Made by a program: the position numbers and the translations under genes. A DNA stretch of 41,156 bases, from assembly GCA_905235635.1 (NCBI GenBank), contig CAJOMC010000010.1, positions 1 through 41,156 of the forward strand, read 5' to 3'. Of this stretch, positions 23,640-26,934 are shown piece after piece. This DNA comes from an uncultured Bacilli bacterium. GTDB lineage: Bacteria > Bacillota_I > Bacilli_A > Izemoplasmatales > UBA1188. Under the pieces are notes generated by a model. The model saw only the letters and a program-made list of their open reading frames with translations. It had not been told where the DNA came from and did not search any database. Each line of letters starts with the position of its first letter. Position 1 is the stretch's first letter.

Positions 23640-23683
23640 TTTAAAGATAGTAGGGATAATTTCCCATTCTTATTATCTTTAAA
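23640..23683. repeat. Inverted repeat in front of the STAS-kinase gene
   Basis: TTTAAAGATA (23640-23649) and TATCTTTAAA (23674-23683) are exact reverse complements; the loop holds a small GGGA/TCCC stem. The likely promoter lies just downstream, so it is either a terminator for the preceding gene or a protein-binding site overlapping the -35 region. Confidence 0.5.
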
Positions 23684-23697
23684 TTAAAAGATAATAA

Positions 23698-23706
23698 TGA
23701 TATAAT
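23698..23706 (+). promoter_or_regulatory. Extended -10 promoter of the partner-switching operon
   Basis: TGATATAAT is a perfect extended -10. The -35 position (23678-23683, TTTAAA) is poor. The expected start near 23713 leaves a 35-base leader containing TGAGGAG. Confidence 0.6.
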
Positions 23707-23747: not shown

Positions 23748-24902
23748 ATGGAATTTAAAGAGAGAGAAAATACACTGGTATTATATTTCACTGGAGAAAT
23801 CAACTCTATTACGTCTGAATCTATTGAAAAAGATGTATTTGATACTATTAAGGATAAAACCTTTAATTCTCTTGAACTAGACTTTGATAAAGTATCATAC
23901 GTATCAAGCGCAGGTCTTAGAATAATCCTTAAACTTAAACAAAGGTATAATGGTGTATCAATAGTGAATGCATCACTTGAAGTATATGATGTTCTTCAAA
24001 TGACTGGTTTTACTAATATTATGGAAGTTAAAAGAGGACTAAGAACTATTGATATAAGTGATGCAACTTTAATAGGTACAGGTTATTTTTCTTTAGTATA
24101 TAGAATAAATAAAGATACAATCATTAAGGTATTTAAAAATACAAGTGACATTAAGGAGATAGAAAGAGAATTAAAGCTCGCTAAACAAGCTTTTATTTTA
24201 GGTGTCCCAACCGCAATCTCTTTTGATATTGTAAAAGTTAATGATAAATATGGTGTAGTATTTGAGATGCTTGATGCTGTATCACTTCAGGATCTTTTCA
24301 TTAAACACCCTGAAAGGTTTGATGAACTTACTACTAAATACACTAATCTTCTTAAGACAATTAATTCAACTGAGCCTCTTGATGATAGTCTTCCAAACGC
24401 TAAGGAAGAATGGCTTAAGAAAGTTGATATGGTAAAAGACCATCTAAAAGAAGAAGATTATAATAAGATACATAAGTTACTTGAAACTATTCCAGAAAAG
24501 AAAACATTTGTTCATGGTGATTGTCATTTTAAGAATATAATGACTCAAAATAATGAATTACTACTAATTGATATGGACACCTTATCTAAAGGACACCATA
24601 TTTTTGAACTCGCATCTATTTATAGTGCGTATTGTACATTTGAGGAAGATGATCCAGGAAATAATTTAAGGTTCTTTGGAATTGAGGCTGAATACTCAAG
24701 AAGAATCTTTAACACCGTTCTTGAAAAATATATGGGATATATTAATCAAGAGTTAATAGATAAAATTAGAATAGTTTCATATACCCACGTGATGTGGTGG
24801 AATATTATGAATGAACCTGATGATTTGATGAGACTAAATGGCTGTAAAGATAGACTTCTTAAATTAATTAAAAAATATGATGATTTATTAATAGATAGGT
24901 AA
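23748..24902 (+). CDS. STAS domain fused to a small-molecule-kinase-like domain
   Basis: 384 residues. Residues 1-100 are a STAS (anti-anti-sigma) domain: NTLVLYFTGEINSITSES, then LELDFDKVSYVSSAGLRIIL with Ser at the position phosphorylated in SpoIIAA/RsbV. Residues about 108-384 are a choline/aminoglycoside-kinase-like fold: glycine-rich start IGTGYFSLVYRIN, an invariant-Lys-like TIIKVFKN, catalytic loop FVHGDCHFKNIM and metal-binding LLLIDMDTLSKG. This combination resembles the STAS-linked kinase-like family I recall as TIGR02172; no substrate is known. The next gene starts two bases after the stop and encodes the matching phosphatase and kinase. TGAGGAG precedes the ATG by ten bases. Confidence 0.85.
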   Translation: MEFKERENTLVLYFTGEINSITSESIEKDVFDTIKDKTFNSLELDFDKVSYVSSAGLRIILKLKQRYNGVSIVNASLEVYDVLQMTGFTNIMEVKRGLRTIDISDATLIGTGYFSLVYRINKDTIIKVFKNTSDIKEIERELKLAKQAFILGVPTAISFDIVKVNDKYGVVFEMLDAVSLQDLFIKHPERFDELTTKYTNLLKTINSTEPLDDSLPNAKEEWLKKVDMVKDHLKEEDYNKIHKLLETIPEKKTFVHGDCHFKNIMTQNNELLLIDMDTLSKGHHIFELASIYSAYCTFEEDDPGNNLRFFGIEAEYSRRIFNTVLEKYMGYINQELIDKIRIVSYTHVMWWNIMNEPDDLMRLNGCKDRLLKLIKKYDDLLIDR

Positions 24903-24903
24903 G

Positions 24904-26796
24904 ATGAAAAAACAAGAAGTTAAGTATAATATCCCAGAAGAATACTTAAGAGAATATTATGAGAATGAGTATGATGCGAATAAGCAGATATCATACGCTT
25001 TAGCTTTAACCGGTGGAATAATAGGTATTATTTGGATACTCTATTTAATCCCGGGTATTTTTACAATTACCAAAAGCACAAGAATTATCACAGGAATAAC
25101 CCTTCCTATAGTTATTCTAATACTTGATTCTCCATTATTCTGGATTAAAAGAAATATGGGTCATAAACCAGCATTCAAGTATTTTGTGCTCATTACTTTT
25201 ATGTTATCGATTGCGGTATTAAATGTAATCATACCTAAACATGCAATAATAGGCTGGGCCTTAGCGATAGTAATTGTAAACCATTACTACAACCCAAAAC
25301 TAGGTAGAACTATATTTATAATTACACTCGTCGCAATGCTTATATCAATATATCTCGCAATGTTCTTTGGAGAATATGACCCTAATTTACTAATGGGCGA
25401 GTTAGATGATAAAGCATCAGTTATTCACCAATACATTGATTATACAGTCACATTCCCTGATACACCGCAAGGCAGATATGAATACTTGAAGTACCTACTT
25501 GATAATGATGTTAATAGATTTGTTTCTGTGTTTATTTATTACTATGCTTCAAGAGCTGTAATACTATTGATATTGTTCTATATATCGAATAGATTAAATA
25601 AACGTACAAATAATCTACTAATTAAAGAATTAGCCGTAAATAATAAACAAATTAATCAAAGTAAAGAATTAGAAATCGCAAGTAAAATACAATTAAGTGC
25701 TTTGCCTGAATCATTCAGAGCGACTAAAGATATAGAAATAATCGCGAACCTTAAAGCCGCAAAAGAAGTAGGTGGAGATTTCTATGATTACTATAAAATA
25801 GATGATAATCATATAGCGATTGTTATAGGGGACGTATCTGGAAAAGGAACTCCTGCGGCCATGCTTATGATGAAGACAATAACGTGTTTTAAAAACTTCA
25901 TCAAAATGACTAGTGACCCAAAAGAAGTACTTGCGCTTATGAACGACTGTATTTTTGATGGAAACGATAATGAAATGTTTGTGACATGTTTCCTTGGTGT
26001 CCTTGATATAGAAAAAGGAATTCTCACATATTCTTCCGCAGGTCATAATCCACCAATCATTCAAAGAAAGAATAAAGCATTTTATCTCAATTTAACTCCA
26101 TCATTTGTGCTTGGTGGTATAAGTGGTATGAAGTATTTAGACAACGAATTTAACCTTGAAAAGGGTGATTCAATTACTCTTTATACTGATGGAATTACTG
26201 AAGCAAGAAATAAAGATGGCGAGTTCTACGGAGAAGATAGATTACTTGCCTTATATTCTAAGAGACAATATGACTCTATAATAAATCTTCATTATGAATT
26301 AGATGACGATTTAAAAAAGTTCACAGATGGTTTCGATCAGTTTGATGATATGACATATTTAACCCTTAAGTATAAGGGAGGAATAGTCTCATATCAAGAA
26401 ATAATACTAGATGCTAAAGTTGAAAACGTATCTAAAGTAAATGATTTAATTAATGAAGTATTAAGCAAAAACAAACTCTCTGAATACAAAAATACATTCA
26501 GTATTGTTGTAGATGAGATATTCTCTAATATTGCGAAATATGCCTATAATGGAAATAGTGGTGAGGTGTACGTCAGAACATTCTACACCAAAGATAGTAA
26601 TGAACTAACCGTCACATTTATCGATAAAGGTGTTGAATTCAATCAACTAGAAAAAGAATCTAAACTTGTTGATGAAAACTATGAATCAAGAGAAGTAGGT
26701 GGTCTTGGAACTCATATAGTTAAATCATTCATAGATTCATATTCATATTCAAGAATAAATGGTAAAAACATCTTAGTTGTAAGAAAGAAACTATAA
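24904..26796 (+). CDS. Membrane SpoIIE-type phosphatase with C-terminal RsbW-type kinase domain
   Basis: 630 residues. N-terminal 230 residues: about six transmembrane segments with an extracytoplasmic loop of some 70 residues (FGEYDPNLLMGELDD onward), a likely sensor. A short coiled coil follows, then a PP2C/SpoIIE phosphatase with GGDFYD (about 290), IGDVSGKGTPAAM (about 307), SSAGHNPP, LYTDGITEAR (about 427) and DDMTYL (about 480); all metal-binding Asp residues are present. The last 130 residues are a GHKL/HATPase_c domain of the RsbW/SpoIIAB type: VVDEIFSNIAKYAY (N box), FIDKGVEFN (G1-like) and GGLGTHIVKSF (G2). One polypeptide thus holds both the kinase and the phosphatase expected to act on the STAS Ser of the upstream protein. 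No sigma factor gene is adjacent. Confidence 0.9.
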   Translation: MKKQEVKYNIPEEYLREYYENEYDANKQISYALALTGGIIGIIWILYLIPGIFTITKSTRIITGITLPIVILILDSPLFWIKRNMGHKPAFKYFVLITFMLSIAVLNVIIPKHAIIGWALAIVIVNHYYNPKLGRTIFIITLVAMLISIYLAMFFGEYDPNLLMGELDDKASVIHQYIDYTVTFPDTPQGRYEYLKYLLDNDVNRFVSVFIYYYASRAVILLILFYISNRLNKRTNNLLIKELAVNNKQINQSKELEIASKIQLSALPESFRATKDIEIIANLKAAKEVGGDFYDYYKIDDNHIAIVIGDVSGKGTPAAMLMMKTITCFKNFIKMTSDPKEVLALMNDCIFDGNDNEMFVTCFLGVLDIEKGILTYSSAGHNPPIIQRKNKAFYLNLTPSFVLGGISGMKYLDNEFNLEKGDSITLYTDGITEARNKDGEFYGEDRLLALYSKRQYDSIINLHYELDDDLKKFTDGFDQFDDMTYLTLKYKGGIVSYQEIILDAKVENVSKVNDLINEVLSKNKLSEYKNTFSIVVDEIFSNIAKYAYNGNSGEVYVRTFYTKDSNELTVTFIDKGVEFNQLEKESKLVDENYESREVGGLGTHIVKSFIDSYSYSRINGKNILVVRKKL

Positions 26797-26817: not shown

Positions 26818-26849
26818 AAAAGCTTTGACGATACTTGGTCAAAGCTTTT
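26818..26849. terminator. Bidirectional terminator between the SpoIIE-like gene and tRNA-Lys
   Basis: AAAAGCTTTGAC (26818-26829) is the exact reverse complement of GTCAAAGCTTTT (26838-26849). A runs on the left and T runs on the right serve the convergent transcripts. Confidence 0.88.
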
Positions 26850-26858
26850 ATTATCTAG

Positions 26859-26934
26859 TGGTACACCTCCACGGATTCGAACCGTGGACCCATTGATTAA
26901 GAGTCAATTGCTCTACCAGCTGAGCTAGAGGTGC
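26859..26934 (-). tRNA. tRNA-Lys (anticodon CUU)
   Basis: On the - strand the 76 bases fold as a full cloverleaf: acceptor GCACCTC/GAGGTGT, D stem GCTC/GAGC, anticodon arm ATTGA-CTCTTAA-TCAAT giving anticodon CUU (reads AAG, Lys), variable loop GGGTC, T arm CACGG-TTCGAAT-CCGTG, discriminator A and an encoded CCA end. The anticodon arm wording matches bacterial tRNA-Lys. The first acceptor pair is G1-U72, a wobble instead of the usual G-C. It has its own promoter on the - strand and shares a terminator with the upstream-lying + strand operon. Confidence 0.95.

Follow-up and report, generated by a model that had tools for sequence, protein, structure and literature searches.

Partner switching is taught as a means to free sigma factors. 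HATPases of the SpoIIAB/RsbW type phosphorylate a serine of a STAS domain and phosphatases of the SpoIIE/RsbU type reverse this modification; STAS domains can also function without phosphorylation. The phosphatase Rv1364c, a SigF-related protein of mycobacteria with a cytosolic sensor, also joins kinase and STAS in its full-length form.

SypE of Vibrio fischeri combines an RsbW-type serine kinase and a PP2C phosphatase in one protein and acts on a single STAS protein, SypA, with no sigma target known (PMC8256260, PMC10120452). In the SiaABCD system of Pseudomonas aeruginosa, SiaC in its unphosphorylated form is a direct activator of the diguanylate cyclase SiaD (PMC8457831). In addition, all4160 of Anabaena is described as a STAS-glycosyltransferase fusion (PMC8256260) and MlaB of E. 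coli as a STAS domain directly regulating a non-sigma effector (PMC7367683). Here we analysed a gene pair with related domains, which is encoded in a stretch of DNA of 41,156 nt from an uncultured Bacilli bacterium (the whole stretch is referred to as the window).

Results

Organization of the gene pair

The pair consists of two open reading frames located on the same strand with a gap of 1 base.

23748..24902, plus strand: STAS-APH gene, 384 aa, putative switch substrate with an attached output kinase
24904..26796, plus strand: membrane SpoIIE-HATPase gene, 630 aa, a single chain with both the phosphatase and its opposing kinase

This two-gene unit is isolated: a MazG-like gene lies about 220 bp upstream, and downstream come a hairpin and then a tRNA-Lys gene in convergent orientation.

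23678..23706, plus strand: weak promoter-like site (TTTAAA, 17-base spacer, TATAAT with TG in front), about 40 bp 5' of the first ATG
26818..26849, no strand assigned: hairpin separating the operon from the tRNA-Lys gene
26859-26934, minus strand: tRNA-Lys gene, convergent with the operon

The promoter call is weak, since promoter-like sites across the region showed no clear excess over shuffled sequences. The hairpin probably closes both the operon and the tRNA-Lys gene.

Domain architecture

The first protein of the pair is divided into the following features.

23748..24047, plus strand: STAS domain of the SpoIIAA/RsbV type, residues 1-100 (PF01740 at residues 2-96)
23907..23909, plus strand: codon of Ser54, the predicted phospho-acceptor (the second serine in YVSSAGLR), read from the DNA and invariant in 84/84 proteins
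24048..24899, plus strand: APH/choline-kinase-like domain, residues 101-384, TIGR02172-like

The match of the STAS family PF01740 to residues 2-96 of the 384-aa protein is above the cut-off (E=1.5e-14), and the STAS profile (A3) hits the solved SpoIIAA structures 1th8, 1auz and 1tid. The attached part is assigned to the APH/choline-kinase superfamily based on a PF01636 match above the cut-off (residues 107-299, E=1.1e-11, 45.4 bits compared to a cut-off of 23.2), the motifs HGDxxxxN and DxD, and fold matches, the best of which are maltokinase, APH(3')-Ia and choline/ethanolamine kinase. Its key residues are K127, E141, HGD(256-258)xxxxN263 and D275/D277. In the confident AlphaFold2 model of the STAS-APH protein (mean pLDDT 94.3, pTM 0.83), the STAS domain ends with a strand at residues 93-96 and the kinase domain begins with one at 107-111, which leaves a linker of about 10 residues, a predicted length that would fit inter-domain coupling.

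TIGR02172, a model of a Fibrobacter paralogous family that does not cover STAS, aligns to the APH part in all of the 61 aligned members. With 100.1 bits (E=1.6e-28) against a curated cut-off of 228 bits, the APH part of the window protein is related to this family, but is not a member of it. An aminoglycoside resistance enzyme was ruled out, since the NCBIfam APH models remained far under their cut-offs (e.g. 16.4 compared to 325 bits).

The second protein combines a membrane region with two catalytic domains.

24994..25575, plus strand: six predicted membrane segments, sensor-like, residues 31-224 (hydropathy scan)
25801..26373, plus strand: SpoIIE/PPM phosphatase domain, residues 300-490, metal Asp motifs GGD292, GD310VSGKG, TD429G and DD482
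26413..26787, plus strand: RsbW/SpoIIAB-type HATPase kinase domain, residues 504-628, with E538, N542, D574 and GGLG

The stretch of about 50 residues that separates membrane segment 5 from segment 6 may lie outside the cytoplasm, and the Pfam scan assigned no family to the N-terminal membrane region and detected no REC domain in the 630-aa protein. The matches to SpoIIE (PF07228, E=4.6e-50, and 2.5e-51 in the genome-wide search) and HATPase_c_2 (PF13581, E=2.5e-16, and 9.5e-18 in the genome-wide search) are both above the cut-off, and the phosphatase section matches the structure PDB 3ke6 (Rv1364c type) by sequence.

The sequence-only reading, which had proposed a STAS-kinase fusion beside a membrane-bound SpoIIE-HATPase fusion at 23748-26796, is thus confirmed by ORF coordinates, Pfam matches, motifs and hydropathy. 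The same applies to the complete kinase motifs that it had ascribed to the STAS-fused domain: YVSSAGL, HGDCHFKN and IDMD are all present in the STAS-APH protein, and the two kinase motifs are near-invariant in relatives.

We further examined which parts of a partner switch are encoded elsewhere in the assembly containing the window (1.37 Mb, 97.9% complete). The genome-wide search, which covered SpoIIE, HATPase_c_2 and the STAS family PF01740, gave exactly one match for each of the three, all of them within this pair, which supports the earlier description of the module as self-contained. From these single hits we conclude, by elimination, that the STAS-APH protein is the sole visible STAS substrate of this phosphatase and kinase. 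Of the features of partner switching in the broad sense, which also include reversible Ser phosphorylation and exclusive partner binding, the pair comprises at sequence level a STAS domain with its serine, a HATPase_c_2 domain with intact boxes and a SpoIIE domain with the metal Asps.

Conservation and linkage in relatives

When 84,980 species genomes were scanned with an alignment of three sequences, at least 454 relatives were confirmed, the best 80 of which were used as locus set. These 80 loci of at least 454 belong to Bacilli and Clostridia and stem nearly all from MAGs, mostly of ruminant or other gut samples. The APH part is present in all of them and the STAS domain in all except L047, which is cut by a contig end. 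Chance or an artefact of one MAG was ruled out, since the same pair recurs in dozens of genomes.

Ser54, Lys127, Glu141, His256, Asp258, Asn263 and Asp275 are invariant in all of the 84 aligned STAS-APH proteins, and Asp277 is present in 83/84. A loss of the STAS serine and the kinase residues in relatives, which had been named beforehand as evidence against the proposed module, was therefore not observed for the main residues. In the partner protein, the Asps of the SpoIIE motifs are kept in 48-49 of 49 relatives, E538 and N542 of the HATPase domain in 56/56 and D574 of the G1 box in 55/56.

The co-occurrence of the two genes in related genomes, a check already suggested by the sequence-only reading, was analysed in two ways. 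Among the best 80 of at least 454 loci, the SpoIIE-HATPase gene is directly adjacent in 16 of the 18 close relatives (50-61% identity), a count limited to loci with at least 2.5 kb of flank on both sides. Of 392 evenly drawn genomes, 11 encode a STAS-APH protein; SpoIIE was found in 11/11 STAS-APH genomes compared to 88/381 others (Fisher p=1.7e-7, without correction for kinship), and in 10 of the 11 it adjoins the STAS-APH gene or is located within a few kb. The exception is G271, in which a single SpoIIE-HATPase protein is encoded on another contig than STAS-APH. SpoIIE or HATPase was not visible within 6 kb in some relatives, e.g. L038, L041 and L053. G362 has a broken STAS-APH reading frame, a stop within the SpoIIE frame and no HATPase_c_2 hit, which looks like a joint decay of the module or could be an assembly error.

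The partnership is kept despite rearrangements. The gene order is reversed in L014, L015, L024, L075 and L080; two of these, L014 and L015, have a 5TM-LYT N-terminus and a further region in place of the sensor. In 19 of the 50 distant loci among the best 80 of at least 454, the HATPase domain is fused to the C-terminus of STAS-APH; these fusions fall into one cluster of 24 rows with 100% SH-aLRT support. For one of them, L057, the predicted model, which was of moderate quality (pLDDT 86.9, pTM 0.65), gave best PDB matches spanning the APH fold only. Judged from gene arrangement, shared parts with shuffled fusion points would be a classic sign of physical partnership.

Extra stand-alone STAS genes occur in 29 of these 50 distant loci (again among the best 80 of at least 454), where they could represent the main switch substrate; the same serine is found in 33/33 of the stand-alone STAS neighbours. 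Within the 3-kb loci of the order's stand-alone HATPases (L101-L117), neither STAS nor sigma genes were seen as neighbours.

In distant loci, two further gene families were often observed in the neighbourhood of STAS-APH. An HD_4 protein is encoded directly upstream in 5/80 loci (best 80 of at least 454) as well as in L156, and a PHP-like protein, just under the Pfam cut-off, is encoded downstream in 10. Both may act on phosphate esters; this would fit a small-molecule kinase opposed by phosphohydrolases and is regarded here as a lead only.

A putative partner switch with a direct enzyme output

Based on domain content, conserved residues and linkage, we consider it likely that the pair works as a partner switch that controls an enzyme directly and needs no sigma factor. 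The N-terminal helices of the membrane protein would sense a signal, the HATPase domain would phosphorylate the STAS residue Ser54 in the neighbouring protein, and the SpoIIE domain would strip the phosphate from it; these two activities are expected from what is established for SpoIIAB/RsbW-type kinases and SpoIIE/RsbU-type phosphatases. The state of Ser54, with the STAS domain being held or not by the HATPase domain at the membrane, would then switch or relocate the fused APH kinase. Phosphorylation might activate the kinase, inhibit it or merely free it from the membrane. Both the phosphotransfer to Ser54 and its effect on the APH domain are predictions, and the output of the pair may be directed at a metabolite or at the cell envelope.

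The APH domain itself most likely phosphorylates a small molecule. It contains, however, a Gly-rich loop (G-x-G-x-x-[GS]-x-V-Y) and a Lys directly before the Asn in HGDxHxKN, which look protein-kinase-like, and some relatives show weak matches to Bud32, RIO1 and PRK11768 kinase. Together with the stand-alone STAS genes accompanying many distant members, these features would fit a relay of two kinases, in which the APH-like domain acts as a protein kinase on the HATPase protein or on a second STAS domain. We regard such a relay as unlikely, since the top fold and family matches are small-molecule kinases and the PF01740 search revealed no second STAS domain in the window genome.

The direct enzyme output also has to be weighed against a sigma factor as target. 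No sigma factor ORF was found within the window, in agreement with the earlier statement that none is nearby, and among the best 80 of at least 454 loci a sigma-like ORF lies beside STAS-APH in only one (1/80), where it is an rpoD fragment at the locus edge. A linked dedicated sigma gene, which characterizes SigB/SigF-type switching, is accordingly missing at these positions. Since the module comes without a sigma factor, the attached kinase is the parsimonious output.

In the genome containing the window, sigma-70 region 2 gave three hits, i.e. rpoD, an alternative sigma factor of 258 aa and an ECF-like fragment. The alternative sigma factor, which comprises the regions 2, 3 and 4, is encoded at G000:C1:40322-41095, a short way downstream of rpoD, and the same sigma factor is found near rpoD in G084, G085, G086, G087 and G089. 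In G086 (82% complete), it is present and HATPase_c_2 was not found. The sequence-only reading had named a sigma factor elsewhere in the genome that pairs with the HATPase domain as a finding that would contradict it. Other sigma factors do exist, namely the 258-aa protein and the ECF-like fragment, but a tracking with the module was not seen: the 258-aa sigma factor belongs to the genus core and is present in G086, and is therefore not tied to the module. For the same reasons it was set aside as a dedicated partner, but kept as part of an alternative explanation.

According to this alternative, switching would be canonical at a distance, with the HATPase domain sequestering the 258-aa sigma factor, STAS-APH acting as anti-anti-sigma factor and the APH domain being merely modulatory. 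The genome does provide a sigma factor with the regions 2, 3 and 4, the HATPase domain belongs to the RsbW/SpoIIAB class, and a single HATPase could bind both sigma factor and STAS domain. Nevertheless, we judge this explanation to be quite improbable, since the sigma factor adjoins rpoD genus-wide, including in G086, since apart from the rpoD fragment at one locus edge no sigma factor stands beside STAS-APH in the best 80 of at least 454 loci, and since the kinase has an invariant active site, for which a mere adaptor would have no need. Through the genus-core alternative sigma factor encoded elsewhere in the genome, a sigma-directed reading stays conceivable, but weak.

That the STAS domain serves passively, for dimerisation or docking, with an unphosphorylated Ser54, and that the linkage reflects co-regulation only, would be compatible with the ability of STAS domains to act without phosphorylation, but is very unlikely in view of the invariant Ser54 (84/84) and of a phosphatase and an RsbW-type kinase that recur as partners despite changed gene order, sensor and fusion pattern.

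Discussion

The proposed direct control of an enzyme by the pair has several implications. If the STAS substrate is itself an enzyme, the pair would be among the smallest phospho-switches that are complete, since two chains would provide sensor, kinase, phosphatase, substrate and output, and it would be hosted by a small genome without any other SpoIIE, HATPase_c_2 or STAS hit. A gating of the attached enzyme by STAS phosphorylation is directly testable with two proteins, and the pair offers a handle on the TIGR02172 kinases as well as on sensing by uncultured rumen bacteria. As a broader and tentative proposal, partner switching might serve in gut and rumen Firmicutes as a general and sigma-free way of controlling enzymes and transporters directly, the outputs being interchangeable. 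STAS domains would be fused to APH-type kinases, acyl-AMP ligases or HD_4 hydrolases, and fusions to MATE transporters or STAS-APH would be formed by RsbW-type HATPases; the window would then contain the minimal two-gene form.

A literature search, in which most subscription journals were not covered, found no paper on STAS-APH fusions or TIGR02172. Compared to the RsbU/RsbV/RsbW-SigB and SpoIIE/SpoIIAA/SpoIIAB-SigF systems, the window pair shares all three domain types, their catalytic motifs being intact, but differs in that no dedicated sigma factor was found, the kinase is fused to the phosphatase and the STAS domain is fused to an enzyme. Rv1364c differs from it by the lack of an APH domain. 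As in all4160 and MlaB, a STAS domain is fused to, or directly regulates, a non-sigma effector, but the effectors of these two are others, and the accessible parts of the sources describe no paired phosphatase-kinase gene.

Precedents for the parts are SypE/SypA and SiaABCD. As in SypE, an RsbW-type kinase and a phosphatase share one chain, but SypE is a response regulator whose central domain is a REC domain and SypA consists of STAS only, whereas the switch protein of the window is membrane-bound and its STAS domain carries its own kinase domain. As in SiaABCD, and likewise in HsbA-HsbD and BgrV-BgrR, a phosphatase-kinase would control an enzyme directly via a switch protein; yet SiaC and SiaD are separate chains and SiaD makes c-di-GMP, whereas the enzyme in the window is an APH-fold kinase fused to STAS. 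The departure from canonical switching that the sequence-only reading had seen in the one-chain kinase-phosphatase and in the sigma-free output therefore has precedents in SypE and in SypA and SiaC/SiaD, respectively. What is new, as far as found, is the STAS-kinase fusion and its spread, which bring together parts known from SypE/SypA and SiaABCD.

Variants of the STAS-based module in the compared genomes

The STAS domain, which in the window is fused to an APH/choline-kinase-like kinase (STAS-APH), is also joined to other proteins, and its partners vary between loci.

Features of the variant loci (L, locus; G, genome; C4, contig of that genome).
L016:1808-3679 (G089), L017:4899-6773 (G086): STAS fused to AMP-binding acyl/aryl ligase; same genus
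L087:5380-6276, L156:6175-6744, L061:5406-5996: HD_4 hydrolase (RelA/SpoT or MESH1-like)
L028:3371-4495, L030:2552-3676: second, divergent STAS-APH paralogue
G362:C4:15472-17645: broken STAS-APH frame; SpoIIE frame with internal TGA
L153:8117-11216 (G085): SpoIIE-HATPase and STAS genes
L154:6179-11570 (G087): stand-alone RsbW-type kinase, STAS, SpoIIE, two MATE transporters
L057:11249-13111, L075:5143-6939, 9 more loci: cluster of MATE transporters close to STAS-APH

The STAS-ligase fusion (623-624 aa), whose gene adjoins that of an Acyl_transf_3-type membrane acyltransferase at both loci, is a further enzyme output carried on a STAS domain. The HD_4 hydrolases lie directly upstream of STAS-APH, and the one in L087 carries its own fused STAS domain.

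The second paralogue (374 aa, 37% identity to the window protein) is separated from the main copy by a few kb and has no adjacent HATPase. An identical STAS-APH protein with the same flanking gene layout occurs on two contigs of MAG RGIG4904, reflecting either duplication or an assembly artefact; both (L018, L019) count as separate loci in locus tallies. No HATPase_c_2 was found in genome G362, and together with its damaged frames this possibly represents joint decay of the module.

At L153, where no APH domain was seen, the neighbouring gene resembles a 4'-phosphopantetheinyl transferase, a weak match (25.8 bits, cut-off 25). The L154 genes form one apparent operon containing no sigma factor. 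Both scanned members of the MATE cluster carry a C-terminal HATPase_c_2 domain, and these proteins could represent a partner-switch kinase built into a transporter.
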